The notes below the pieces were generated by a model. It did no database searches and was not told the DNA's origin. It was given only the letters and a program-made list of their open reading frames with translations. 24,468 bases of DNA from a virus: positions 1 through 24,468 of IMG/VR virus record IMGVR_UViG_3300046000_003616; one strand, 5' to 3'. This document shows positions 1 through 11,845 of the stretch, in pieces. How positions within the stretch are numbered: the stretch's first letter is position 1; every line of letters starts with the position of its first letter. The position numbers and the translations under genes are program-made.

Positions 1-65
1 TCTACATTGATTGTAGAGGAGAAAGATGCGTATTGTTCAATCGTTATCTCGGAATAAGCGGCCAA
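1..65 (-). CDS. 5' end of a further minus-strand phage gene, TTG start, runs off the window
   Basis: Reading leftwards, a TTG codon at 65..63 opens a frame that stays open to the window edge and begins M-A-A-Y-S-E-I-T-I-E-Q-Y-A-S-F-S-S-T. A GGGAG Shine-Dalgarno (76..72) lies 6 nt before the TTG, and the frame has a stop a few codons further upstream with no ATG, so TTG is the best start. The pattern 'I-E-Q-x-A-x-F-S-x-T-I-x-V' resembles, from memory, the N terminus of small structural proteins found in T4-like cyanophages; that is recall, not a search. Only about 21 residues are visible, so no function is assigned. The start falls just after the hairpin and late-promoter-like motif described at 70-109. 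Two short plus-strand frames also cross this stretch and cannot be excluded from sequence alone. Confidence 0.55.
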   Translation of the reverse strand, partial: MAAYSEITIEQYASFSSTINV

Positions 66-69
66 AATT

Positions 70-109
70 AACTCCCAATTTAATTACCTATTTAGTCAAA
101 CTGGGAGTT
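70..109 (-). promoter_or_regulatory. 12-bp hairpin with a late-promoter-like loop that encloses the downstream ribosome binding site
   Basis: On minus-strand RNA, 109..98 (AACUCCCAGUUU) pairs with 81..70 (AAAUUGGGAGUU): 12 continuous pairs with one G-U at 101/78. On the plus strand that pair would be an A-C mismatch, so the fold favours minus-strand transcripts. The 16-nt loop (97..82) consists of the 14-nt motif GACTAAATAGGTAA plus two T. The 3' arm contains the GGGAG that serves the TTG-start gene. The stem is followed by AATTTTGG, so a weak intrinsic terminator for the fibre operon is the alternative reading. Confidence 0.65.
84..97 (-). promoter_or_regulatory. Late-promoter-like motif GACTAAATAGGTAA
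   Basis: The 14 bases are identical to those at 1854-1867, which lie just ahead of the fibre gene starting at 1841. CTAAATA is close to the T4 late-promoter box TATAAATA. It ends 23 nt before the TTG start at 65, and T4-type spacing would place transcription start near position 83. Promoter activity is inferred from motif and placement. Confidence 0.5.
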
Positions 110-114
110 TGGAA

Positions 115-336
115 CTAAGGTCTTTCTGGCCAAGTAAATGTGTCTGGAAATCCAGGTTGTAATGAGATATCTCTTAATTGTTGACGATAAACAGCCCAAG
201 CCGTTTTCTTTTCCTCATTAAGTGGACCATCTGGCATTTGAGTCCAGTCACTTAGTGTGAGTAAATGATTTCTCTGTGAAAGTATTGTGAATTTTTGAAA
301 TTCAATTCTGGATGTTTCTAAAATATTGTCAATCAT
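115..336 (-). CDS. Small tail-assembly-chaperone-like protein (Phage_tail_APC type)
   Basis: This 73-residue protein matches the C-terminal signature of the Phage_tail_APC family: 'Q-R-N-x-L-L-x-x-S-D-W-T-Q' (residues 21-33), a 'D-G-P-L-N-E-E-K-K-x-A-W' stretch (36-47), 'Y-R-Q-Q-L-R-D-I' (50-57) and a final 'P-G-F-P-x-x-x-x-W-P-E-R-P'. Members are often encoded next to tail-fibre genes and are thought to assist fibre assembly. Its start codon overlaps the stop codon of the BNR fibre gene (TAATG at 338..334), which suggests translational coupling and that this fibre is its client. It is a short version of the C-terminal half of the 168-aa protein at 7746-8252. It ends TAG and is followed by the hairpin at 70-109. 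Confidence 0.72.
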   Translation of the reverse strand: MIDNILETSRIEFQKFTILSQRNHLLTLSDWTQMPDGPLNEEKKTAWAVYRQQLRDISLQPGFPDTFTWPERP

Positions 337-1841
337 TATTGTGGACCGTATAAAGTTGGATTAAATGTAGAACTAGATAGTGCCATAATCTTATTAACCC
401 GAGTGTCGGCAGTATTAAAGTCTTGGAGTGGCGATTGTACTAAAGTCCATGAAGATGTATTTGGATTAGCTTGACTACTGCTATATAGATAAACCCTGCT
501 GTTACTCAAGCCAGCTAAAACATACCATTTACTGTCCACAGAATTGTATGCAACTGAAGTTGGGGTTCCATATGTTGTAGGGAAGCCACTAACAAAAGTC
601 CAAGTTGTGCCAGAACCCATTGTTTTTGTAACCAAATAATGAGAACTTGCAATAGCACCCACAGACAACCAATAAGTGCCATTATGAGTTAAAGCAATTG
701 GATAATAAGTGCTAGAAGTGCCGTGCGTACTATCTCCAAAATTATAAGTTGAATAATTTAAACCACCATCTGTTGAACTAGCTATACCTACTGTGCTAGG
801 TCCATTGTGTCCAAGAATAACTTCTGTAGAACTACCCACAAATTGGCCCGTATAATAGTATCTACTAGGTACAGACCAAGAGTATGACCAAGTATTACCA
901 TCTTGTGAGTACAGAACATATGAAGTTCCCCCATCAATAGCATAGATTAAAAAATATGAGGATCCTTGAGTTCCATTATCTATAAAATTTATATAATATG
1001 CGTAAGTACCACCACCGCTAGTAATCGAAGTGAGTCCGGTAATGGTCGCAGTTGCTGAGTTTAGATTGAAAGGAGTATCTGGCCCATTAGCCCATATATT
1101 ACCACCACTTTGAGCAATTGCGACAACCACGTTTCTACCTGTATACTTATTTACAGCTGCATCAAAACCAACACCGGTACCGGATATATTACCCGCTATT
1201 GTTGTCCAATCGATACCATCTTTTGAGCGTGCTACACCTTTAATTATACTATTACTGTTGTTAATATCAACTGTACCTTGGAAATTAGCTATCAACTGAT
1301 TATTATAAAAATCTCGTTTAATATTATAAGCAGAACTTAAGCTAACATTTCTATTAGAGGTCATACCTAAGTAATAACCTATGTCTTCTGCTGGATATCC
1401 TGCCCATTTTAAAGTACCGGAAACAGTAGAAGGATTTTGTAGTACATATACAGAACCTCCACCAAAATATCCCTGTGGTCCAGAAAGTATTAAACTTCCT
1501 GATGTATATAAAGAAGATACTGGAGTTGACCAAGTTGGCGCATTGGTACCATTTGAAGTTAGGACTTGACCAGCTGTTCCTGTTGCCAACATTGCAGTAG
1601 CACCAGCTCCTGTTTGATATGGTATTGTTCCTGCTGATCCACCTGCCAAGTTGTTTGCTGTATTACTGACACCTAGAGCCGCATTGGCCGCAGATGTTAT
1701 TCTACCAACAGAATCGACTGTGATAATTGGAATAGCACCAGCACCACCATAAACACCGGATGTTACGCCAGTGTTGGCCAGAGCTGCAGATGTAATCGTG
1801 TTTGCTGTAATACTATTAGCTGTAATTCTTGAGATTGGCAT
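336..1841 (-). CDS. Tail fibre/adhesin with beta-propeller-like (BNR) repeats
   Basis: The 501-residue protein is probably a distal receptor-binding fibre. The N terminus (about 3-60) is a fibre repeat, with 'T-G-V-T-x-G-x-Y-G-G-A' followed by 'I-P-I-I-T-V-D-x-x-G-R-I-T'; the same module occurs in the 287-aa fibre at 10372-11235. A 'G-Q-V-L-T-S-N-G-x-x-A-P-x-W' trimerisation-type motif follows near residue 95-108. From about residue 200 there are five spaced blade-like repeats: 'S-K-D-G-I-D-W' (about 205), 'S-Q-D-G-N-T-W' (310), 'S-T-D-G-G-L-N-Y' (355), 'G-S-G-T-T-W' (410) and 'N-T-S-S-W' (455). These resemble the Asp-box/BNR motif of sialidase-type propellers. No enzyme activity should be assumed, because BNR repeats are also used only for binding. 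A late-promoter-like motif lies 17 nt upstream, and the gene overlaps a small chaperone gene by one base. Confidence 0.72.
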   Translation of the reverse strand: MPISRITANSITANTITSAALANTGVTSGVYGGAGAIPIITVDSVGRITSAANAALGVSNTANNLAGGSAGTIPYQTGAGATAMLATGTAGQVLTSNGTNAPTWSTPVSSLYTSGSLILSGPQGYFGGGSVYVLQNPSTVSGTLKWAGYPAEDIGYYLGMTSNRNVSLSSAYNIKRDFYNNQLIANFQGTVDINNSNSIIKGVARSKDGIDWTTIAGNISGTGVGFDAAVNKYTGRNVVVAIAQSGGNIWANGPDTPFNLNSATATITGLTSITSGGGTYAYYINFIDNGTQGSSYFLIYAIDGGTSYVLYSQDGNTWSYSWSVPSRYYYTGQFVGSSTEVILGHNGPSTVGIASSTDGGLNYSTYNFGDSTHGTSSTYYPIALTHNGTYWLSVGAIASSHYLVTKTMGSGTTWTFVSGFPTTYGTPTSVAYNSVDSKWYVLAGLSNSRVYLYSSSQANPNTSSWTLVQSPLQDFNTADTRVNKIMALSSSTFNPTLYGPQ

Positions 1842-1853
1842 AGTTTTTTCTTT

Positions 1854-1867
1854 TTACCTATTTAGTC
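1854..1867 (-). promoter_or_regulatory. Late-promoter-like motif upstream of the BNR fibre gene
   Basis: GACTAAATAGGTAA is identical to the motif at 84-97. CTAAATA ends 17 nt before the ATG at 1841. A second T4-like box, ATAAATA (1883..1877), lies slightly further upstream and overlaps the end of the 82-aa gene. Either could drive the fibre-chaperone gene pair. The call rests on motif recurrence and position. Confidence 0.55.
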
Positions 1868-1875
1868 TGTAGTGC

Positions 1876-2124
1876 TTATTTATCTTTTTGCTGGCTTGGT
1901 GTAATGATGGCGGTTGAATTAATCCTATCAATCGACATATAGCCTTGGCAAGTTACATTATAATCCACTCCATTTGCATCCTTCTCACTCTTAACAGGTG
2001 CAGTAATATCTAAATTCTTAAACAAGTATTCTTTACCATTCTCAAACACACGCCAAACATGGTCTATAGTCCCACGTCCAGATTGTCCACGACTTTTATT
2101 AAACCTAATTTGATAAGTGTTCAT
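1876..2124 (-). CDS. Small conserved phage protein, function unknown
   Basis: The 82-residue protein begins 'M-N-T-Y-Q-I-R-F-N-K-S-R-G-Q' and continues 'D-H-V-W-R-V-F-E-N-G-K-E-Y-L-F-K', a beta-rich, charged sequence without signal peptide or membrane segment. From memory, closely similar short proteins occur in cyanophage-type T4-like genomes, but I know of no function. Its ATG overlaps the stop codon of the oxygenase gene (shared bases 2121-2124, ATGA), and a GAGG lies a few bases before the start, so the two are probably made together. The partnership with the oxygenase is inference. Its stop codon region carries the ATAAATA box at 1877-1883. Confidence 0.7.
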   Translation of the reverse strand: MNTYQIRFNKSRGQSGRGTIDHVWRVFENGKEYLFKNLDITAPVKSEKDANGVDYNVTCQGYMSIDRINSTAIITPSQQKDK

Positions 2125-2819
2125 ATAACCTCAGCAGAAGGAATATTACAGATAATGTTTGGTTCTGAAACAACTGTTAAATTAAAATGTACGAATTTAA
2201 TAGGTAAATCTGAAGCATGACGAGTGAATGAATGTGCTAACCAAGAATTTGTGAAAATCATTAAACCAGGTTTTGGTTGAAAGTTAATCATTTTACTAGC
2301 AAAAGTTGCTTTAGTTATATCAGTTTCAGGTAAATCTATTTGAACTTTTGCAATACGTGGATCATGGAATACAACTTTTGAGCAATTTTCTGGAGCTTCT
2401 AAAAAATAAAATCCCACAATTTGAGAACCATAACCGTGAACATGTTGGTCCATTGCAGAATGTTTATAATGTTCCTGTGTCCACATTTCCATGTAGGATA
2501 TTGATTTATCCTGCATATCATAACCTTGGTCATTAAGAATATTCCAAGAAGTTGCACCAACAAATTCTGTAAACTCTAACAAACGAGGATCGTTGTAATA
2601 ACTACTAGTCATATGCAAAGGATACATTTCATCCAAATCTTGTTCTTTGCGTTTAATCTCTAAATTTTCTTCAGAAACGGTATTAACTATTTCTAAAAAG
2701 TCGGGCCTTTCAATCAAATAAACAGCACTTGGAAATTGAAGCTCTACTTGTAACTGAGTATTTAAAACCTCAGATTTAATTAATTTTTTAGATTTTTTTT
2801 TAGATACACTTTTTGCCAT
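2121..2819 (-). CDS. 2OG-Fe(II) oxygenase family protein
   Basis: This 232-residue protein resembles the 2OG-FeII_Oxy_5 type of non-haem iron, 2-oxoglutarate-dependent dioxygenases common in marine T4-like phages. Visible landmarks are 'M-D-Q-H-V-H-G-Y-G-S' (residues 123-132, candidate iron ligands H126/H128), 'G-F-Y-F-L-E-A-P' (136-143), 'V-F-H-D-P-R' (150-155), 'P-G-L-M-I-F-T-N-S-W-L-A-H-S' (184-197, distal His H196) and 'K-F-V-H-F-N-L' (208-214). The distal Arg that usually binds 2-oxoglutarate in this family appears to be replaced by Lys (K208). The N terminus is lysine-rich (residues 3-16). The substrate is unknown; the position among fibre genes makes a virion protein, or a host metabolite or protein, possible. 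It is followed by the overlapping 82-aa gene. Confidence 0.78.
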   Translation of the reverse strand: MAKSVSKKKSKKLIKSEVLNTQLQVELQFPSAVYLIERPDFLEIVNTVSEENLEIKRKEQDLDEMYPLHMTSSYYNDPRLLEFTEFVGATSWNILNDQGYDMQDKSISYMEMWTQEHYKHSAMDQHVHGYGSQIVGFYFLEAPENCSKVVFHDPRIAKVQIDLPETDITKATFASKMINFQPKPGLMIFTNSWLAHSFTRHASDLPIKFVHFNLTVVSEPNIICNIPSAEVI

Positions 2820-2838
2820 AATATACTTTCTTAGTCTT

Positions 2839-2856
2839 GCATATAATTATATATGC
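2839..2856. repeat. Short perfect inverted repeat between two genes
   Basis: GCATATA (2839-2845) and TATATGC (2850-2856) pair around an ATTA loop, in the 54-nt spacer between the 172-aa gene and the oxygenase gene. No T-run follows on the minus strand, so it does not look like an intrinsic terminator. It could be an mRNA-end or processing structure. A partial late-box look-alike, GACTAAGAAAG, lies nearer the oxygenase start. Confidence 0.4.
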
Positions 2857-2873
2857 ACTCGCACAATTGATTA

Positions 2874-3392
2874 TCAATCAGTTTGACTAACTGTTATCCA
2901 TTGCCATGCAAAGAAATCAAAAATCACATATTCATTATCATCAACCGGTTTAGGCGGTTTAGGTGGTGTATCTTTCCAATTGTTATCTGCACCGCACCAA
3001 AAAGTCATAATGCCAGCATTAATTTTTGTTTGGTTTTTTTCTGGTCGTGGAATTGGTGGAACCATCTTACCAATATTTTTATCAAAAACCCAAGCTGACC
3101 AATTTTCGCTTTGAGGTCGTGAATTAAAAATATCAATAATAAACTGTTGTGCAACTGTTTTTTCTTCTTCGGTCATGTTACGTACATTCCACACATCAGT
3201 CCAAACTCCATCTACTTTTGCATAGACTGGTTCATTAGATTCTAAAACTTCATAGATGCCAGGAATAGGACGCTCAACACGAACAAATGGTTCCCAGTTT
3301 TCAGGAATCATATCAAATGCTTGTAAAAGATTATCTTCAAGTGCAGGATGATTTTTTGGTTGTCCGTTTTCAATTTCAATGTAAAGTTTCAT
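2874..3392 (-). CDS. Tryptophan-rich tail accessory protein, probable fibre assembly factor
   Basis: I place the start at the ATG at 3392 (M-K-L-Y-I-E-I-E-N-G-Q-P), giving 172 residues. A GGAGA Shine-Dalgarno at 3402..3398 is correctly spaced for it, whereas the in-frame ATG at 3404 would put that signal inside the coding region. The N-terminal half has 'E-N-W-E-P-F-V-R-V-E-R-P' and 'V-Y-A-K-V-D-G-V-W-T-D-V-W-x-V-R-N-M-T-E-E-E-K'. The C-terminal half has two proline-rich units, 'V-P-P-I-P-R-P' and 'P-P-K-P-P-K-P', each near Trp/Phe-rich segments, a layout seen in tail-fibre assembly chaperone-like proteins. Similar proteins occur next to fibre genes in T4-like marine phages, by recall. It directly follows the glycine-rich adhesin gene, a plausible client. 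Confidence 0.6.
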   Translation of the reverse strand: MKLYIEIENGQPKNHPALEDNLLQAFDMIPENWEPFVRVERPIPGIYEVLESNEPVYAKVDGVWTDVWNVRNMTEEEKTVAQQFIIDIFNSRPQSENWSAWVFDKNIGKMVPPIPRPEKNQTKINAGIMTFWCGADNNWKDTPPKPPKPVDDNEYVIFDFFAWQWITVSQTD

Positions 3393-3397
3393 TATGT

Positions 3398-3402
3398 TCT
3401 CC
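3398..3402 (-). promoter_or_regulatory. Ribosome binding site that fixes the start at 3392
   Basis: GGAGA reads from 3402 to 3398 on the minus strand, five bases before the ATG at 3392..3390. It also lies within the first codons of the alternative ATG at 3404, which makes the upstream start unlikely. Confidence 0.65.
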
Positions 3403-3407
3403 AAGAA

Positions 3408-4421
3408 TTAAAGGTCACCAGTACAAGTTGAAGGGAAACTGCGAGTTGTGCCAGGATAGATGATACGGACTGCGCCATTTTTTCCTTGTGCGGCAGAACC
3501 TGGATAATAATAGTAATATGTACCGCAGCATGTGCAGAATGGACCCTCACGGCGGCCGCCAGAACCACCGCCGCCTCCACCATAATTACCACCTGTTGTG
3601 CCGTTGTTATTTCCAGTAGCGTTAGTACCAGCAGTACCACTAGAACCTGCGCCGCCGCCAGTAGCTGTATTTAATGAAACAGTTCCACCAGCACCAGTTG
3701 ATCCTTTTCCAAAAATTCCAACGCCACCGCCACCTGCACCGCCAGTGTAACTTAAACAACCACTTCGTTGAGCGCCGCCACCACCGCCACCGCCTGCGCC
3801 ACTGCAAGCAGCTCCAGCAGAACCATTGTTGAGCGGCGGTTGTCCAGCTCCACCAGCGCCTGAATAACCACCAGCACCGCCGCCAGAACCGCCTGCATTA
3901 CCGCCGCCTTGGCCACCAGCACCACCAGCACCACCAGTGCCAGTATATACTATTCCTGCAAGGCCGCCAAGAAATCCTGGTCCAGCTGAACCGGCACATC
4001 GAGCACCGCCGCCTCCACCAGCATTAACATATGTTGTGCCAGAATAACTGAACGTTGAATTAGCCCCAGCACCACCAGCAGAAGGTTGGCCACCAGTCGT
4101 ACCTCCATTGCCTACAACAACTGTGTAAGAAAGACCTGGAGTTACAGTTTGAGAATTAACATATGCTAGTGCACCACCTGCACCTCCGCCAGCACCGGTC
4201 TTACAACCGGTACCAGACTGATTACAACCATAACTACCAGTTCCACCGCCACCGCCGCCGCCAATAGCTACAACTGAAACAGAAGTAATTCCAGCAGAAG
4301 GAATCCAAGTATATGTACCAGAAGAAGTGTATGCTTGTTGTCCTATTGCTATTCCAACACTGCCACCACTTTTCTTAAAGGTTGTTCTTATCGAGCCAGT
4401 AAATTTTCTTTGTAAAGGCAT
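3408..4421 (-). CDS. Glycine-rich, cysteine-containing tail adhesin
   Basis: The 337-residue protein starts with a short basic segment. It then has 'Y-T-S-S-G-T-Y-T-W-I-P-S-A-G-I-T' (about 31-46) and 'S-V-V-A-I-G-G-G-G-G-G-G', the typical entry to a phage glycine-rich domain. Runs of Gly with Ala, Ser and Asn fill residues about 50-300, like the polyglycine sheets of T4-type gp38 adhesins. The C terminus has 'F-C-T-C-C-G-T-Y-Y-Y-Y-Y-P-G', then 'G-A-V-R-I-I-Y-P-G-T-T-R-S-F-P-S-T', an ending shared by many glycine-rich fibre proteins of marine T4-like phages. Nine cysteines are visible, many for a virion adhesin. It lies 2 nt after the 265-aa fibre gene and just before the 172-aa accessory gene. 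The likely role is receptor recognition at a fibre tip. Confidence 0.72.
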   Translation of the reverse strand: MPLQRKFTGSIRTTFKKSGGSVGIAIGQQAYTSSGTYTWIPSAGITSVSVVAIGGGGGGGTGSYGCNQSGTGCKTGAGGGAGGALAYVNSQTVTPGLSYTVVVGNGGTTGGQPSAGGAGANSTFSYSGTTYVNAGGGGGARCAGSAGPGFLGGLAGIVYTGTGGAGGAGGQGGGNAGGSGGGAGGYSGAGGAGQPPLNNGSAGAACSGAGGGGGGGAQRSGCLSYTGGAGGGGVGIFGKGSTGAGGTVSLNTATGGGAGSSGTAGTNATGNNNGTTGGNYGGGGGGSGGRREGPFCTCCGTYYYYYPGSAAQGKNGAVRIIYPGTTRSFPSTCTGDL

Positions 4422-4423
4422 AA

Positions 4424-5221
4424 TTAATAGAAACTTTGTACAGATGCAAAAACATTATATGTTGGAGTTGCAGCAGTTTTAATAACTGTTACTGTATAAA
4501 TGTCTGTGTTTGCGGGAGTAATAGATGCTGGTGCACCGCCTGCCCATTTTGGAGTAATAGAACTTCCATCAATTTGGAATCCACTTATGTATTTTGGTGT
4601 TGAACTGTTTGGATTGATAATCACAAACGATGCAGTATTACCAACTGGCATACCACCAAGTCCCACAAAGTTAACAGTTGAGTTTGCTGATGAATTAGCA
4701 GTAAACACTAAGAGTGGTTGAGACACATTGATAGTTGTATTTGCACCCATCAATGTAGAAACGTTTGCAGTTTCAAATACTGTACTGAGAAAACTAGTTG
4801 CGCCAACAAAGTTTATGTTTCCAGTTGTAAGTGTGGATGATAACTTAGCACCAGTAATAGAAGCATCAACAATGTTATTAGCATTAATTGCTGTTAAACC
4901 CAACTTGTCACCTGTTACTGCACCAGCAAGAATCTTTTGTGATGTTACAGAACCATCGGATGGAATAGAAGCACTTGCACCTAAACCTAAGAATATAACC
5001 TCAACGTTATTTGTTCCCAACGGAGGAGCTTCAGAGAATACAAGTGTTGTACTGCTAAGACTATATGAGTCTGTTTGTTGACGGACACCACCAACAAACA
5101 CTATAATAGAACTTGTTGCTAATGGTGCTTCACGTAAGGTGAAGTTAACAGTTGTATTGTCACCACTAAAGGTGTCAATAGCAAATGTTGCTGAGCTGGG
5201 AGAATTTCCGATATAAGCCAT
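4424..5221 (-). CDS. 'YIGN' tail fibre protein, paralogue of 10372-11235
   Basis: The 265-residue protein begins 'M-A-Y-I-G-N-S-P-S-S-A-T-F', then 'F-S-G-D-N-T-T-V-N-F-T-L' and an alternating beta region ('V-G-G-V-R-Q-Q', 'S-S-T-T-L-V-F-S-E-A-P-P'). This is the N-terminal fibre domain that is also present in the 287-aa protein. A 'I-P-S-D-G-S-V-T-S-Q-K-I' repeat, 'G-A-V-T-G-D-K-L' and 'A-S-I-T-G-A-K-L' form a repetitive stalk. The last 70 residues contain 'F-Q-I-D-G-S-S-I-T-P-K-W-A-G-G-A-P' and resemble the C-terminal fibre module of its paralogue only loosely. It is probably a short fibre or a connector for the glycine-rich adhesin encoded 2 nt downstream. A late-promoter-like box lies 30 nt upstream. 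Confidence 0.7.
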   Translation of the reverse strand: MAYIGNSPSSATFAIDTFSGDNTTVNFTLREAPLATSSIIVFVGGVRQQTDSYSLSSTTLVFSEAPPLGTNNVEVIFLGLGASASIPSDGSVTSQKILAGAVTGDKLGLTAINANNIVDASITGAKLSSTLTTGNINFVGATSFLSTVFETANVSTLMGANTTINVSQPLLVFTANSSANSTVNFVGLGGMPVGNTASFVIINPNSSTPKYISGFQIDGSSITPKWAGGAPASITPANTDIYTVTVIKTAATPTYNVFASVQSFY

Positions 5222-5251
5222 AATTCTTTATTTATGTTGTTGGGTTTATTC

Positions 5252-5258
5252 TATTTAT
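5252..5258 (-). promoter_or_regulatory. Late-promoter-like box upstream of the 265-aa fibre gene
   Basis: GATAAATAG reads on the minus strand immediately after the TGA stop of the 661-aa gene; ATAAATA occupies 5258..5252 and ends 30 nt before the ATG at 5221. A second ATAAATA (5235..5229) is only 7 nt from the ATG and probably too close to act. The spacing fits a T4-type late promoter with a short leader. Confidence 0.45.
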
Positions 5259-7243
5259 CATGCAATTGCCAAGAAGATGTAGGTGCCGCCAGATTCATTA
5301 ATTGGATAATTAGTAGAATCGTTATTAACAATGAAACCTGCATTAGCTGGATCAACAGCATCATAAGCTGTTACTTCAGCGGCCGGCGTGTTTGATTTAT
5401 AGAATGGATCATTTCCAGAAACAATACCTCGAGCAGTATCAAATACATACCAATCACCAATTGAATCAGTCCGTTTGATTAAAACAAACCTAGCACCAGC
5501 TGCAAAGCCACAATCAATTGTTTGTGTTGAACCATTACCTGTGTATGAACCAACTTTGGAAACACCAGGACAGGTGGCAAATAGGTAAGCAACATAAGTT
5601 TGCGTATTGTCGTTCAAGTTGGTTGAATTACCATCTGCTTTAAATGTGGTACTTGTTGGTTGCCAAACAGTGCTAGTAGCACCAGTGCCGATGCCATCAC
5701 CAGTTGCTGTTGAATTTAAAATGAACCACAATGTATTAAAAGAAGGTAATATAGGATGATATACATACCAATTTTCAGAGGCACTTCTTTTTTTACAAAT
5801 AATAAGTTCAGGCGTAACTCTAAGATTGTGATTTATATATTGTGTTGAGGCTCCGTTTCCCGTATAGCAAACTATATCAAAGAAACCGGGAGCACGCCTC
5901 AGAAGATAATTTACAATTCCCCATCCAAAATTGTTGACATAACTATAAGTTAAATCGGATCCCAAAGATATACTGCTCATATTAAAAGATGTCACAGCAT
6001 CTGTTGGAGAGGTCTCAGAGGCACCTTGTGATGTTAAGAGTTGCCGGCCGGCTCCTCGCAACCTGTCTACAACGGTACCAGGGCCACTGCCTGTAGTTGT
6101 AGTTTTTATCAGAGCCAAATCAGGCGGAAACCCAGCTGTTACCACATCATTAGCCCCTGTTCCAGTTCTTGTTACAGGACTAAACACACTAGTCCCCACA
6201 GTAGGCACTTTCATCGGGCCTCTGCGAATTGCTATGTAGATGTAGGTAGCGGATGCAGAAAGGGTTGCGTTGGCATAGAAGCCTGTGGCATTGATGTTAA
6301 CTAAACCACCACCCGATTCAGCGCCAGAAGTGTTAGCAAATAAAAATCTAGCTAATCCATCAGCAGGCAAACCACGCATTGTGTCAATCACAGCCCAGCC
6401 ATTTACTGCGCTTGAGCTTTTTACTAATAACCATTGAGGCTCATAGCCAAGGTTTACAGTTGCACTACCCGCACCATCGGCAGTTACAGACCCACACGAA
6501 ATCACATTGTCTGAACCAGTCAGGCCAAAGCCGCCTGCATTGTGGGCAAAGAGGTAGGCTACGTATGTTGCACCAGAGTCATTGAATCCTGAAGCCACAT
6601 TGCTATTAATCCAATTTGGATTAAATGTGGAAGAATCCATATAGCTTGGGCCTGGAGATGTAATAGAACCATCATAAAAAGCAGCATCAGTATTGTTTAA
6701 ATATATTCCAACATAATTTCCATTAGACTTTCGAATCATCGTAAGCCAATTACTTGTTGAACTTGTTTTCTTTATAATGATAGCTCCAAACATCGAACCC
6801 AAATTATGACTAACAATATTTGTAGTTCCTGTTCCTGTATAGGTCACAATATCAAAGAACTTTGCTTGCTCTCGGAAGGTCCATGAGACGTATGTTTGAT
6901 TATTAGTATTTACTGAAGTGTTATAGTTAGTGCCTAATGAAAAACCATTAGAATTAAAACTTGATACCTCAGTACCGGCAGTGTTAGTTTGATAACCATC
7001 GGTGGAATCAGAATGCAAAACTTTGTTTTGTCCTCCATCTGTATTGTATAAAGCATGTTGTGTTGAAGCATTGCTTCTGTTTTTAAGCCAAACCAAACCA
7101 CCTTTTGTAGACAAATCAATCCCATTGGTAATAGTCTGTGTAGAGCCATTGCCTGTGTAAAGGTACGTACTGAATACATCTTCAATATATGTTGGCGTTG
7201 CTGCACCACCAGCCGCATAAACATTATAAGCAGCTTTACTCAT
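5258..7243 (-). CDS. Large fibre/adhesin with six DUF7483-type repeats (copy B)
   Basis: The 661-residue protein consists of six diverged repeats with the core 'Y-T-G-N-G-x-x-Q-x-I' followed by 'G-x-x-P-x-x-x-x-I-K-R' and an ending like 'W-x-V-x-D-x-x-R-G'. They are centred near residues 35, 135, 250, 365, 465 and 570. The pattern matches the DUF7483 family of tail-associated proteins in marine phages, as I recall it. Linkers such as 'Y-V-A-Y-L-F-A-H-N-A-G-G-F-G' and 'A-I-R-R-G-P-M-K-V-P-T' are shared with the paralogue at 8305-10368. The last repeat is nearly identical in the two copies, while other segments differ widely. Its start overlaps the stop codon of the 163-aa gene (TAATG). The likely role is virion surface or receptor binding; enzymatic function is not indicated. 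Confidence 0.68.
   Translation of the reverse strand: MSKAAYNVYAAGGAATPTYIEDVFSTYLYTGNGSTQTITNGIDLSTKGGLVWLKNRSNASTQHALYNTDGGQNKVLHSDSTDGYQTNTAGTEVSSFNSNGFSLGTNYNTSVNTNNQTYVSWTFREQAKFFDIVTYTGTGTTNIVSHNLGSMFGAIIIKKTSSTSNWLTMIRKSNGNYVGIYLNNTDAAFYDGSITSPGPSYMDSSTFNPNWINSNVASGFNDSGATYVAYLFAHNAGGFGLTGSDNVISCGSVTADGAGSATVNLGYEPQWLLVKSSSAVNGWAVIDTMRGLPADGLARFLFANTSGAESGGGLVNINATGFYANATLSASATYIYIAIRRGPMKVPTVGTSVFSPVTRTGTGANDVVTAGFPPDLALIKTTTTGSGPGTVVDRLRGAGRQLLTSQGASETSPTDAVTSFNMSSISLGSDLTYSYVNNFGWGIVNYLLRRAPGFFDIVCYTGNGASTQYINHNLRVTPELIICKKRSASENWYVYHPILPSFNTLWFILNSTATGDGIGTGATSTVWQPTSTTFKADGNSTNLNDNTQTYVAYLFATCPGVSKVGSYTGNGSTQTIDCGFAAGARFVLIKRTDSIGDWYVFDTARGIVSGNDPFYKSNTPAAEVTAYDAVDPANAGFIVNNDSTNYPINESGGTYIFLAIA
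5490..5597. repeat. 108-bp DNA repeat, copy in the 661-aa gene
   Basis: By eye this segment differs from 8537-8644 at 8 of 108 positions, nearly all silent. It encodes the last-repeat entry 'A-T-C-P-G-V-S-K-V-G-S-Y-T-G-N-G' of both DUF7483 paralogues. Flanking DNA is much less alike. It could support recombination between the two genes. Confidence 0.8.
6489..6568. repeat. 80-bp DNA repeat, copy in the 661-aa gene
   Basis: By eye it matches 9623-9702 at 70 of 80 positions, without gaps. Both encode 'A-Y-L-F-A-H-N-A-G-G-F-G-L-T-G' and the following repeat start. It is the second conserved island between the two DUF7483 paralogues. Confidence 0.75.
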
Positions 7244-7734
7244 TAAAATTGTCCTAGAACTGAAGTAGCGTAGTAGTTTGTTCCACCATCAATAGTGTAT
7301 AGAGCAATCGTATCAACATAACCAGCAGTTGTGGATAATGTTGGTGCTGTGTTTGATGGCCATTGAATACTAGATGGCCATGTAAGTGCATAGCTTCCAG
7401 TTTGTGACAACTGAATTAAAAAACTAAATCCTGTCAGACTAGGTGGTGGGCTAGTAAAGATAACATTGGCTGCAGAGGTCACTACAGTTTTAAAAATTGT
7501 TGCACTAGCCAAGTTGCAAGTAATGTTACCAGATGCAATAGAAACGTTAGAGAATGTTTCTTGGTATGTTTGTGCTTTAACGTTACCGCTAATATTTACA
7601 TTACTAGTTATTGTTGGCGCTGTTAATGCACCACCAACAGTAAGAGGACCACCGGTCGATAAACTTGTTGCTAATTGAGTGCCAGTTACGGTACCACTTG
7701 AAATTAAATTACCACTAACTCTAGTTAAAGCCAT
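7243..7734 (-). CDS. Short tail fibre protein
   Basis: The 163-residue protein has an N-terminal fibre stalk ('S-G-N-L-I-S-S-G-T-V-T-G-T-Q-L', then 'T-V-G-G-A-L-T-A-P-T-I'). Its beta-rich C-terminal module has 'F-L-I-Q-L-S-Q-T-G-S-Y-A-L-T-W-P' and 'I-Q-W-P-S-N-T-A-P-T-L', ending 'Y-T-I-D-G-G-T-N-Y-Y-A'. The same module closes the 287-aa fibre at 10372-11235 ('V-R-W-P-A-N-T-A-P-T-L'). It follows the 168-aa chaperone-like gene by 11 nt, with AGAGAA as possible ribosome binding site, and overlaps the 661-aa repeat gene by TAATG. It is likely a structural fibre component or small fibre tip. Confidence 0.68.
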   Translation of the reverse strand: MALTRVSGNLISSGTVTGTQLATSLSTGGPLTVGGALTAPTITSNVNISGNVKAQTYQETFSNVSIASGNITCNLASATIFKTVVTSAANVIFTSPPPSLTGFSFLIQLSQTGSYALTWPSSIQWPSNTAPTLSTTAGYVDTIALYTIDGGTNYYATSVLGQF

Positions 7735-7745
7735 TTTTTATTCTC

Positions 7746-8252
7746 TTATTCTGGTTTAGTTGGCCACACAATATTGAATGGGTCAGACTGTTCTGTAACA
7801 TCTCTTAATGCTTGGCGATATGTAGACCACTCTGTTGGCATTGGAGTAACTGTATCTGCGGCACGGATGGATAACCAATCTGTATCTTTCAACAAAGAAT
7901 CTCTCTGTGAACGGACTTGTGTCCATCTCTCAGTATTACGTCTGGCCATGAATGATTCTTCATGTTGAGCCTTTGTTGTTGTTACACCTTCTACTGTGGT
8001 GTCTGAGAATAGGTCTACTACTTCCCAGTTTTGTACCCAATTGCCTAGGCTATCCTGCACAACACCATTCAAACGGATGGTTTTCAATGGGTCTGTATTG
8101 CTTGGTTGTGGTGCTTGTAGAACTGGATCGATTCCAATAAACTCACAAACAGATGCATCCCATACTGCTGGAAAAGATGTGTTCCAATGTAGGCGTCTTA
8201 CTTCGCCTTGATTTAAAACTTGGCCTGTTTCTCTGATTCTATAGTCTGACAT
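7746..8252 (-). CDS. Tail-assembly-chaperone-like protein (Phage_tail_APC C-terminal domain)
   Basis: In this 168-residue protein the C-terminal region (about 100-168) contains 'W-T-Q-V-R-S-Q-R-D-S-L-L-K-D-T-D-W' (110-126), 'W-S-T-Y-R-Q-A-L-R-D-V' (142-152) and 'N-I-V-W-P-T-K-P' (160-167), the Phage_tail_APC signature. The N-terminal half, starting 'M-S-D-Y-R-I-R-E-T-G-Q-V', resembles the leading domain of fibre-associated phage proteins and holds 'G-N-W-V-Q-N-W-E-V-V-D-L-F'. Such proteins are thought to assist fibre folding or attachment. AAGGA lies a suitable distance before the ATG, and a late-box-like motif is further upstream. It sits between two fibre genes, so either could be the client. 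The 73-aa protein at 115-336 is a shorter relative. Confidence 0.75.
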   Translation of the reverse strand: MSDYRIRETGQVLNQGEVRRLHWNTSFPAVWDASVCEFIGIDPVLQAPQPSNTDPLKTIRLNGVVQDSLGNWVQNWEVVDLFSDTTVEGVTTTKAQHEESFMARRNTERWTQVRSQRDSLLKDTDWLSIRAADTVTPMPTEWSTYRQALRDVTEQSDPFNIVWPTKPE

Positions 8253-8275
8253 TTTTATTCCTTGATGTTTGGATA

Positions 8276-8296
8276 GTTAGATTGATATTCTCTAAC
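8276..8296. repeat. Short inverted repeat in the leader of the 168-aa gene
   Basis: GTTAGA (8276-8281) and TCTAAC (8291-8296) flank a 9-nt loop. The structure lies between the late-box-like motif (8302-8308) and the ATG at 8252, so it would be within the leader RNA. The ribosome binding site AAGGA is outside it. A role is not shown. Confidence 0.35.
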
Positions 8297-8301
8297 TGTA
8301 T

Positions 8302-8308
8302 TATTTAT
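8302..8308 (-). promoter_or_regulatory. Late-promoter-like box upstream of the 168-aa gene
   Basis: CATAAATAAT on the minus strand overlaps the TAA stop of the 687-aa gene; ATAAATA is 8308..8302 and ends 49 nt before the ATG at 8252. It fits the recurring arrangement in which the box is built into the preceding stop codon. Confidence 0.4.
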
Positions 8309-10368
8309 GCGATTGCTAAAAAGAAATATGTGGCGGATGCTACATTGACTGGGAAATTGGTGTCGTCATTATTAACAATAAAACCAGAATTGGCAGGGTC
8401 TACAGCATCATAAGATGATGTTTCAGCAAATGCTCTATTCAAATGTAAGAATGGATCATTTCCTGAAATAATTCCTCGAGCAGTGTCAAACACATACCAC
8501 TCAGAATTTGCGTCTGTTCGTTTAATCCAAATAAGCCTAGCACCAGCAGCAAAGCCACAATCAATTGTTTGTGTTGAGCCATTACCTGTATACGAGCCTA
8601 CTTTGGAAACACCAGGACAGGTTGCAAATAGGTAAGCAATATAAACATCAGGTGAGATGTTTGTGGATGCTGAAATGCCGCCAACTGAAAATACAGATGA
8701 GGTTGGTGCTTGATTATTCCAAGCATGTATATCTGTTCCAGCAGCATATACTTGATTTATAAAAAAAGTTTTATTAGTACCTACAGTTGAAGAATATACA
8801 GTCATACTACCACCTGAAATTCTATTTTTCACAATGATAAACTCAGGTATAACTCCTAAGTTATGTGGAATATCTCGAGCAGAAGCTGTTCCTGCATAAC
8901 CAACTATATCAAAAAATCCTGGAGCTCGGCGAAATCCATAAACCACCTGGCCAGTTGAGGCCAAACCATTACCTGAAAATCCAGCCCGCATAATATTATT
9001 TGAATCTTGGAATGGACAATTATAATAAGATGAACTAAATGATGCAGTTGTTACAAATGCACCAATGGCTTCTTCTGCAAGAGTACCTGGTGAACTAATT
9101 CGATTAGCTGGTGAATTAGTTCCAAGTTGTGGAAATCCTCTAAGTCTGTCAAAAAATTGTGCTGAATTACTACCATTAAACCTATCACGGAAATATAATG
9201 CCATGTCTCCGTTTTCCATAGAAATTCCACCACCAAGCGTACTATCAACTTTAGCTAATGAAAAAACACTTGATGCAACCGTAGGAACTTTCATCGGGCC
9301 CCGGCGGATGGCAATGTATATGAAAGTTTGGTTTGATGCTGACTGATAGGTGTTACCATCGACAGTAAAACCAGTTGCATTTGGAATAAATCCGTGAGAT
9401 GTTCCACTACCTAAATCAATTTCTCTGAAATTGCCCTCAGCAACTAAAACTTGTCCTTTGGTGTTGGAGTTGTAATTTACGGGATCTTGGCTGGGAGCAT
9501 GAGCACCCCTTATACTATCTGATATTACTCCACGGCCTCCATATTGCGAACCTTTAAAAAGAACCCATTGCGGTTCCCAACCAAGAGTCACAGAAGCCTT
9601 TGCATTACCGTCAGTAGTAAATGACCCACACGAAATCACGCTGTCAGTACCTGTTAGGCCGAAGCCTCCGGCATTGTGGGCAAAGAGGTAGGCAACGTAT
9701 GTGTTTCCGGCTTCTCCACTATCAGCGTTGACTTGTGAGTTGTTGCCAACCGTAAATGTTGTGCTTGTTGGATTAACTGTGGTAGAGTTATCTCCAAAAT
9801 AGTTAGCTGCGCCACCTGTGGTTTGTGCGTCCGTAGTATTAAGTTTTATGTAATTTCCTGCTGTTAAACTTCTATGCCAAACATTCCAATCACCCACGTT
9901 ACCACTTCTTTTTATGATAATCATACCTGGTATAGAGCCAAGGTTGTGTGACAAATTCTGTGTGGTACCATTTCCTGTCCAAGTCACAATATCAAAGAAC
10001 TTTGGCTGCTTGCGGAATGTCCATGCAACATTTTTAGTATCAACTTGGTTTCCATTCGCATTATCAGTAAAATAAAATCCTGAAGTTGAAGGAAACGTAA
10101 CGTATGATGGGCCGCCAGTTGCGCCTGAGTTGTTTGAATTGAGTGGATAACCCAAGCCTCTAGTGGTGTCAATCAAAACATGGCTAAAAGCATTATCTCT
10201 ACTTTTAATCCAAATTAACCCACCTTTTGTAGCTAAATCAATTCCATTATTGATAGTTTGTGCGGTGCCATTACCCGCATAAACATACGTACTAAACACA
10301 TCTTCAATATAGTTAGCTCTAGCCGAGCCAGCTGCGCCTTGCTGCAATAATTTAGGAGTTAATGACAT
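8305..10368 (-). CDS. Large fibre/adhesin with six DUF7483-type repeats (copy A)
   Basis: The 687-residue protein shares its architecture with the 661-residue copy B. It has six repeats beginning like 'Y-A-G-N-G-T-A-Q-T-I' (about residue 30) or 'W-T-G-N-G-T-T-Q-N-L' (about 134), followed by 'I-P-G-M-I-I-I-K-R' or a similar strand and endings such as 'I-D-T-T-R-G-L' and 'F-D-T-A-R-G-I'. The fourth repeat is the most eroded. The linkers 'A-I-R-R-G-P-M-K-V-P-T' and 'R-R-A-P-G-F-F-D-I-V' are shared with copy B. The N-terminal 24 residues before 'Y-I-E-D-V-F-S-T-Y' are short and variable in both. It follows the 287-aa fibre gene by 3 nt. The likely role is a virion surface or receptor-binding protein of the DUF7483 type; no catalytic motif is seen. 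Confidence 0.68.
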   Translation of the reverse strand: MSLTPKLLQQGAAGSARANYIEDVFSTYVYAGNGTAQTINNGIDLATKGGLIWIKSRDNAFSHVLIDTTRGLGYPLNSNNSGATGGPSYVTFPSTSGFYFTDNANGNQVDTKNVAWTFRKQPKFFDIVTWTGNGTTQNLSHNLGSIPGMIIIKRSGNVGDWNVWHRSLTAGNYIKLNTTDAQTTGGAANYFGDNSTTVNPTSTTFTVGNNSQVNADSGEAGNTYVAYLFAHNAGGFGLTGTDSVISCGSFTTDGNAKASVTLGWEPQWVLFKGSQYGGRGVISDSIRGAHAPSQDPVNYNSNTKGQVLVAEGNFREIDLGSGTSHGFIPNATGFTVDGNTYQSASNQTFIYIAIRRGPMKVPTVASSVFSLAKVDSTLGGGISMENGDMALYFRDRFNGSNSAQFFDRLRGFPQLGTNSPANRISSPGTLAEEAIGAFVTTASFSSSYYNCPFQDSNNIMRAGFSGNGLASTGQVVYGFRRAPGFFDIVGYAGTASARDIPHNLGVIPEFIIVKNRISGGSMTVYSSTVGTNKTFFINQVYAAGTDIHAWNNQAPTSSVFSVGGISASTNISPDVYIAYLFATCPGVSKVGSYTGNGSTQTIDCGFAAGARLIWIKRTDANSEWYVFDTARGIISGNDPFLHLNRAFAETSSYDAVDPANSGFIVNNDDTNFPVNVASATYFFLAIA
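8537..8644. repeat. 108-bp DNA repeat, copy in the 687-aa gene
   Basis: Partner of 5490-5597, 100 of 108 positions identical by eye, gap-free. It lies at the same place in the paralogous gene, about 3 kb away, in the same orientation. Confidence 0.8.
9623..9702. repeat. 80-bp DNA repeat, copy in the 687-aa gene
   Basis: Partner of 6489-6568, 70 of 80 positions identical by eye. It encodes the third-repeat entry of the DUF7483-type protein. Confidence 0.75.
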
Positions 10369-10371
10369 AGA

Positions 10372-11235
10372 TTATGCTGTGTAACCAATCAATGAAGAAC
10401 CACGCCATGTAGTTCCAGTATTAGCTGTTGAGAAGATTAATAAGTCTTTACCTGAAGATGTTAGTGTTGGTGCAGTATTGGCTGGCCACCTAACAGCTGC
10501 TGGGAATGTAACAGTATATGCACCGCCATTTGCCAACTCAATAACAAAAGAACTATCTCTTGCGACAGGAGCACCAGTGAATACAAATGATGTTGTTCCT
10601 GCTGGATTTACAACAAAGTAATTTGCAAGTGCTACGTTAATCGTATTACTTGAGGTTGCCAATGTTACTACGTTCATAGCAACACCACCATATACATCTA
10701 ATGACGTATTGGCAATTGCACCGGATGTATTACCAACCGCAAATGGTCCACTTGAGAATGTTGGTACTGCACTAAACGCTACGTTAGCTGCATAGGTCAC
10801 ACGACCATCTATGCCAACTGTAACAACTGGAATCTGTGTTGCGCCACCATAAGAGCCGAATGTCACACCAGTATTACTTAAATCAGAAGATGTAATTGTA
10901 TAGGCTGCAATTTTGGCACCAGTGACTGCACCATCGGCAATAGATGCCGTTAAAACTGTACCATCACTAGGTACAAATTTACTTATGATACTGTTTCTAT
11001 ATGTGACAAGAATGTTACCAGTACCGGACGATGGAGCACCGTCAAACGTAAGTGTTGTTCCACTTACAGTATAAGCCGTAAATGGGTCTTGTTGGACATT
11101 GTTAACGATAACTTCAATATCACCAGTAGCAAAAACTGTTCGTGATAATGTAAAAGCCGTTGTCGTATTATCACCATTAAACCTTTCGGTCAATGATACG
11201 AAAGCTGATGTGGATGGTGTATTACCGATATACAT
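10372..11235 (-). CDS. 'YIGN' tail fibre protein with three shared modules
   Basis: The 287-residue protein begins 'M-Y-I-G-N-T-P-S-T' and 'F-N-G-D-N-T-T-T-A-F-T-L', a beta-domain with 'V-N-N-V-Q-Q-D-P' and 'S-G-T-T-L-T-F-D-G-A-P' (about 15-80), as in the 265-aa paralogue. Residues about 117-153 carry 'T-G-V-T-F-G-S-Y-G-G-A' and 'I-P-V-V-T-V-G-I-D-G-R-V-T', shared with the BNR fibre. The final 75 residues ('V-R-W-P-A-N-T-A-P-T-L', then 'T-T-W-R-G-S') match the end of the 163-aa fibre. It therefore joins the N-terminal, stalk and tip modules found separately elsewhere in the window. The start overlaps the stop codon of the 106-aa gene (TAATG). The likely role is a tail fibre or connector subunit. 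Confidence 0.72.
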   Translation of the reverse strand: MYIGNTPSTSAFVSLTERFNGDNTTTAFTLSRTVFATGDIEVIVNNVQQDPFTAYTVSGTTLTFDGAPSSGTGNILVTYRNSIISKFVPSDGTVLTASIADGAVTGAKIAAYTITSSDLSNTGVTFGSYGGATQIPVVTVGIDGRVTYAANVAFSAVPTFSSGPFAVGNTSGAIANTSLDVYGGVAMNVVTLATSSNTINVALANYFVVNPAGTTSFVFTGAPVARDSSFVIELANGGAYTVTFPAAVRWPANTAPTLTSSGKDLLIFSTANTGTTWRGSSLIGYTA

Positions 11236-11555
11236 TAACTAATCTCCAGCACCGATAAAATAACGTCTGCGTTGGCGGTTGCTGAAACCTTAATTGCATC
11301 AGTTGCTTCCAGTACCAATTTTTGGTCTCCGCCAATTGGAACTAAAGCACCACCAACTGCAATAGTTGCTTCTTTAACCATGAAATAGTCTGTGCCACCA
11401 GCCGTAATGAATACGTTAGCGCTAATTGGTGCTGTAGTCATATTAGCAATACTCATGCCAATGACTGTTGCTTGAACACCAGCGCCAGCAGTAAATATAG
11501 TCTGTGCAGCTGTGTTTGCATTTTTAACGTGATAATTTTTAAAAGAATTGGCCAT
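11235..11555 (-). CDS. Small beta-rich virion protein, function unknown
   Basis: The 106-residue protein begins 'M-A-N-S-F-K-N-Y-H-V-K-N', followed by alternating hydrophobic strands ('V-I-G-M-S-I-A-N', 'A-N-V-F-I-T-A-G-G'), 'G-G-D-Q-K-L-V-L-E-A-T-D-A-I-K-V' and an ending 'V-I-L-S-V-L-E-I-S'. Proteins with this layout are common near fibre genes of marine T4-like and other phages, by recall, and probably form a small beta-sandwich in the virion. Their exact role is unknown to me. It has the best late-promoter match of the window (TATAAATA) 21 nt upstream and an AAGGA-type ribosome binding site, so it may begin the fibre transcription unit. The next gene overlaps it by one base. Confidence 0.72.
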   Translation of the reverse strand: MANSFKNYHVKNANTAAQTIFTAGAGVQATVIGMSIANMTTAPISANVFITAGGTDYFMVKEATIAVGGALVPIGGDQKLVLEATDAIKVSATANADVILSVLEIS

Positions 11556-11576
11556 GTTTTGATATCCTTAATGCCG

Positions 11577-11584
11577 TATTTATA
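11577..11584 (-). promoter_or_regulatory. T4-type late promoter, TATAAATA
   Basis: An exact TATAAATA occupies 11584..11577, directly after the TAA stop of the 86-aa gene and 21 nt before the ATG at 11555. An AAGGATATC ribosome binding site lies between. T4 late promoters use TATAAATA as their only core element. It would drive the fibre locus to its left. Confidence 0.7.
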
Positions 11585-11845
11585 TTAGCCTAATGCTATT
11601 GCAAAGGCAAGACTGTCGCCAGTTGATGCTATTGCAGCATTCGCAATGTTGGCGTAAATTGCTGTATTAGCAGAACCTGAAAGCTGTGTAACATTTAAAT
11701 TGCCACCAATTGTCACATTTGTGTTGGCATAGAATGTTGCTGAGTTGCCACCATCTGTTAAGTTGTTGGTCGTAGTGATTAAAGACTGTGAAGCACCCAA
11801 CCATTGTTGGAATGTATTTGCCGTGGTTAGTTGATTAATTGCCAT
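11585..11845 (-). CDS. Short fibre-like protein, possibly reduced
   Basis: The 86-residue protein starts 'M-A-I-N-Q-L-T-T-A-N-T-F-Q-Q-W-L-G-A-S-Q', which resembles the first residues of long fibre or structural proteins in T4-like marine phages. It is followed by a repetitive 'N-V-T-I-G-G-N-L-N-V-T' stalk and 'A-N-I-A-N-A-A-I-A'. It ends soon after, where relatives of this type continue for several hundred residues, so it may be a reduced version or a small baseplate-side adaptor. The family comparison is from memory. Its ATG overlaps the stop codon of the 70-aa gene (TAATG at 11847..11843), and its stop abuts the TATAAATA box. Confidence 0.6.
   Translation of the reverse strand: MAINQLTTANTFQQWLGASQSLITTTNNLTDGGNSATFYANTNVTIGGNLNVTQLSGSANTAIYANIANAAIASTGDSLAFAIALG

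Follow-up and report, generated by a model that had tools for sequence, protein, structure and literature searches.

The window, that is, the whole stretch of DNA analysed here, is a 24,468-nt virus record. It carries T4-type baseplate genes (gp6-like and gp8-like) and a series of fibre genes, all of which are encoded on the minus strand; among the fibre genes is one for a 2OG-Fe(II) oxygenase (phrog_81, 2121-2819). Near position 1, the gene for a 73-aa protein, assigned by family match to the tail fibre assembly chaperones (PF16778; 115..336, minus strand), is followed by a hairpin and then by a minus-strand gene with a TTG start (1..65), of which the window end leaves only the first 21 codons. 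The stop codon of the chaperone gene lies 5 nt before the stem. Read as minus-strand RNA, the hairpin consists of the 5' arm AACTCCCAGTTT (98..109), the 16-nt loop GACTAAATAGGTAATT (82..97) and the 3' arm AAATTGGGAGTT (70..81), which includes the Shine-Dalgarno sequence GGGAG (72..76). The stem comprises 12 pairs, one of them a G-U pair (G101-U78) whose counterpart on the plus strand is an A-C mismatch. A 6-nt spacer separates GGGAG (76..72) from the TTG codon (65..63). An earlier note on this DNA had described the stem between 109..98 and 81..70, the G-U pair and the position of GGGAG, and direct reading of the sequence bore out every detail. RNA folding, which the note had named as a check, gave -19.6 kcal/mol for positions 50-125 (z -2.66; 2 of 200 shuffles were equally stable), and the predicted fold has extra weak pairs within the loop (82..97). 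A search of positions 1-2000 against Rfam 15 gave no match at E values up to 1, and no DNA-level relatives of the window end were found among cultured phages. On the plus strand, a 30-aa open reading frame with a strong Shine-Dalgarno sequence (AGAGGAG) runs antisense to the hairpin and the TTG gene (26-118). It is intact in near-identical DNA alone, is disrupted in L094 and is missing from other relatives, and is probably due to chance.

The loop harbours the box ACTAAATA (89..96, minus strand), which the earlier note had called late-promoter-like. It matches (A/G)CTAAATA, the published Aeh1 variant of the T4-type late promoter, in which CTAAATA begins at -12 (PMC1524935, PMC2988020). Counted accordingly, the box would extend from -13 to -6 and transcription would start near position 83. 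The 14-mer GACTAAATAGGTAA, which includes the loop motif, occurs twice in the window (97..84 and 1867..1854), each time in the gap before a minus-strand gene; the second, identical copy (1854..1867, minus strand) lies without a hairpin ahead of gene 336-1841. In a related record of 157,713 nt, 8 of the 10 copies of ACTAAATA and 9 of the 11 copies of TATAAATA fell between genes. Of the control words, AACTAATA did so in 1 of 11 cases and ATCAAATA in 2 of 13, and some others gave values in between. Four of the five related records searched encode a homologue of the late sigma factor gp55. Furthermore, the box lies 22-46 nt ahead of the start codon in nearly all relatives of the TTG gene. Several lines thus point to an Aeh1-type T4 late promoter in the loop, as judged from its sequence, position and distribution. 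With the box at 96..89 and the expected start at 83, a self-started RNA would lack the whole 5' arm (109..98), which lies upstream of the promoter.

That the truncated TTG gene is real and lies on the minus strand, as the earlier note had supposed, is evident from relatives, which contain a complete codirectional open reading frame of 111 aa. AlphaFold2 predicted a confident beta sandwich for the product (pLDDT 92). The best PDB matches of the predicted fold were tail-tip chains of phages DT57C and T5, and the best structural and profile matches were the p132 chains of 8hqz and 7qg9. The profile search named these matches L-shaped tail fibre assembly and p132 (E values of 1e-4 and 1e-3). The TTG gene is therefore predicted to encode an Ig-like fold akin to the T5 collar protein p132. 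In T5, p132 is Ig-like, anchors the L-shaped fibres and forms, as a dodecamer, the collar to which the side fibres attach (PMC10038345). The window protein shares the Ig-like fold; it differs in its T4-like context and in its low identity to T5 p132 (about 20%), and its collar role is putative. In one relative, the p132-like gene is the first of a fibre-gene operon. In the cultured cyanophage P-HM1, the genes for a VrlC protein and for a 74-aa protein immediately precede the p132-like homologue. The window has a 75-aa structural gene and the p132-like gene, adjacent in P-HM1, separated by a fibre cassette (roughly 115-11845).

We searched other contigs for a pattern in which the promoter and GGGAG were fixed and the 5' arm was left free. 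Nine other contigs matched, and all nine had a complementary 5' arm, a TTG or GTG start 6-7 nt past GGGAG and a complete open reading frame of 110-111 aa. The sequences upstream of the element were of several different kinds in these contigs. The element travels with the downstream gene, and loci picked by the upstream chaperone were for this reason uninformative. It occurs in uncultured T4-like viruses that form a family related to cyanobacterial phages; in all nine cultured phages with a p132-like gene that were examined, the hairpin was absent. Two loci (L118:4950-5000 and L120:579-629) have a longer loop, with some bases in the promoter box or beside it (GACT or TTTGA) paired in the stem.

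Late-promoter flanks are T-rich upstream and A-rich downstream, where the Shine-Dalgarno sequence also lies, and could pair by accident. Indeed, the TTT/AAA part of the stem is nearly invariant, and promoters without hairpins can have T-rich flanks as well. A first set of 57 distinct regions was scored for a stem straddling the promoter and covering the ribosome site, with at least 7 bp and at least 3 G-C pairs. Such stems occurred at 19 of the 57 sites ahead of the p132-like gene, whereas none was present at the 56 other late-promoter-like sites of the same contigs; among these sites, the hairpin is thus restricted to the p132-like gene. In the enlarged set, 23 of 111 distinct upstream regions had a promoter-straddling stem over the ribosome site, all with at least 9 bp. 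Stems of this length arose in only about 1% of shuffled or recombined 5' and 3' flanks, and in 0.9% when flanks of non-hairpin regions were randomly recombined. Likewise, among the 18 promoter-start pairs of the 157,713-nt record, the hairpin was the only strong case. These frequencies, together with the co-variation of the G-C part of the stem, make accidental pairing extremely improbable.

The two arms change together between lineages, as in CTCCCAGTTT/AAATTGGGAG, CTCCCGTTTT/AAAACGGGAG, CTCCTCTTT/AAAGAGGAG, CTCCTGTTT/AAACAGGAG and TTCCCCTTTT/AAAAGGGGAA (5' and 3' arm, respectively). One position of the stem is G-C, A-U or C-G, and three others are C-G or U-A. In an arm-swap test, the 3' arms were permuted among seven lineages. 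Own pairing summed to -109.6 kcal/mol against a mean of -84.9 kcal/mol, and 7 of the 5040 permutations were as good. In the alignment, 92.1% of the pairs were standard, with 17 double-changed cells compared with 6.5 in shuffles. Because possession of a stem was the criterion for entering the hairpin set, comparisons of own with crossed arms are inflated, and the counts at control sites are the safer evidence. Within this selected set, the compensatory changes indicate that the stem has been kept by selection, in agreement with the stem conservation that the earlier note had set as a test.

The earlier note had offered a simple intrinsic terminator as its own alternative. A terminator of the fibre gene cluster would suit a stem that begins 5 nt past the stop codon of gene 115-336, and in many relatives the neighbouring position is indeed taken by terminators. 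However, the 3' arm is followed by AATTTTGG in the window and by ATTTGTGG, GATTCTTGG or AATCAAAATC in relatives, and no lineage shows a U-run. The loop is about 14-17 nt long with the promoter inside, the stem is absent from the list produced by the terminator scan, and the real terminators of the relatives sit separately, upstream of the promoter, a few loci having both. We consider it very improbable that the hairpin is a terminator.

Hairpins and terminators instead alternate at this junction. An ordinary terminator lay immediately upstream of the promoter in 3 of the 23 hairpin regions and in 52 of the 88 others (Fisher p 1e-4), a contrast that is not independent of descent and includes only two independent contrasts on well-supported branches of the tree. 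The hairpin group L131, L137, L138 and L141 is nested among terminator-bearing relatives. Both devices are present in four loci (L101, L103, L104 and L120), the stem being broken in L120. Since the tree provides only these two supported contrasts, we infer, rather than conclude, that hairpin and terminator both insulate the collar/fibre operon against transcripts running on from the fibre genes ahead of it.

The folding predictions are in line with a role of the hairpin in translation. In the predicted structure of the read-through RNA, a stable stem covers the Shine-Dalgarno sequence. The mean predicted probability that the ribosome site is unpaired was 0.03 for read-through RNA and 0.51 for promoter-started RNA. 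For GGGAG in the window, the predicted values were about 0.0002 and 0.50, respectively. The element is very likely, as the earlier note had proposed, a translation gate that combines a late promoter with a hairpin. We infer its start site, its translational block and its purpose as follows. In RNA reading through from the preceding tail-fibre genes, the 5' arm would pair with GGGAG and initiation at the TTG codon would be blocked. RNA polymerase with the phage late sigma factor gp55 would start at ACTAAATA in the loop, near position 83, and yield an RNA that lacks the 5' arm. In this short RNA, GGGAG would be free, allowing translation of the p132-like collar gene as the first of the fibre operon.

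A different outcome for the read-through RNA is conceivable if the hairpin blocks initiation unless the ribosome that finishes the upstream gene opens the 5' arm. Such opening could occur because the stop codon is often close by: the distance is 5 nt in the window and, in most loci that lack a terminator, 4-15 nt. It is longer elsewhere, however, at 25-44 nt in L095, L096 and L099 and at 40-77 nt in L101, L103, L104 and L120, where the stem follows a terminator. Moreover, the upstream genes differ between loci, and a promoter inside the loop would not be needed. We therefore regard as improbable such a translational coupling, in which translation of the read-through RNA would keep pace with that of the upstream gene.

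Masking of ribosome sites in long RNAs is known in T4. According to the passages on gene e in PMC3014915, the long RNA folds to hide the ribosome site, whereas late RNA escapes because the late promoters are located in the 5' strand of the fold. As far as that account goes, the window element shares both the masking in long RNA, predicted here, and the location of the late promoter. It differs in gene, phage group and sequence, and also in its TTG start and in its upstream genes, which look late, whereas the silenced T4 RNA is described as early. The relevant passages of PMC2988022 describe hairpins that hide the ribosome site of I-TevI, I-TevII, I-TevIII, segB and Aeh1 mobE, with a late promoter just upstream whose RNA is too short to fold the hairpin. 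The window's promoter box is of the Aeh1 type (CTAAATA). In contrast to these homing endonuclease genes, which the account places in early or middle units, the window's gene is a virion gene behind fibre genes. T4 soc is also a virion gene with a ribosome site that is sequestered in its leader, according to the passages on soc in PMC3014915 and PMC2988022. Its product is the small outer capsid protein and not a tail collar, and those passages mention no alternation with a terminator. By analogy, the window element appears to use the same mechanism as the switch of e, soc and I-TevI, in a new gene and a new phage group. The placement of a promoter within a hairpin is known from T4; we found no earlier report of it for a tail-collar gene.

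In the passages cited, the switch serves to time the expression of T4 e, soc and the I-TevI genes, which are carried on early and middle RNAs (PMC3014915, PMC2988022). Were the window element to operate exactly like that of e or I-TevI, it would silence read-through RNA of the early or middle period and let late RNA be translated, which is the rule for the known cases as these accounts present it. However, the genes upstream are structural (baseplate, fibre and fibre-assembly genes) and are preceded by late-promoter-like sites, so that the read-through RNA is probably late as well and early read-through would not be expected. Gene content and promoter-like sites are also what speaks for the earlier note's view that the upstream genes are probably late. 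A temporal switch of the T4 kind thus seems unlikely. As the preceding genes appear late too, the likeliest purpose of the gate would be not timing but insulation, with the dose determined by the operon's own promoter.

The start codons suggest a further restraint. Among the 111 distinct regions, the gene begins with ATG in 42, TTG in 41, GTG in 14, ATC in 10, ATT in 2 and ATA in 2. In the p132-like family (L091-L360), the starts are aligned at the same codon, with normal spacing from a strong Shine-Dalgarno sequence, and non-AUG starts dominate among the closer relatives. A masked ribosome site combined with a weak start codon suggests that the p132-like protein must not be overmade. In its fullest form, the proposal is a late-on-late insulator that frees translation from read-through of exchangeable fibre cassettes and swaps with a terminator at this junction, while regular use of a non-AUG start (TTG, GTG, ATC, ATT or ATA) keeps the collar protein low. 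We put forward this combined proposal tentatively, as one that comes close to being probable.

The findings indicate that use of the T4 promoter-in-hairpin switch extends beyond T-even-type phages and beyond genes carried on early RNA. They provide comparative support for the switch in the form of many lineages, compensatory changes and gain or loss against a terminator, and the simple anatomy of the element offers a signature by which further gates of this kind could be found. They also suggest how phages may swap fibre cassettes while the dose of the collar operon that follows stays undisturbed.
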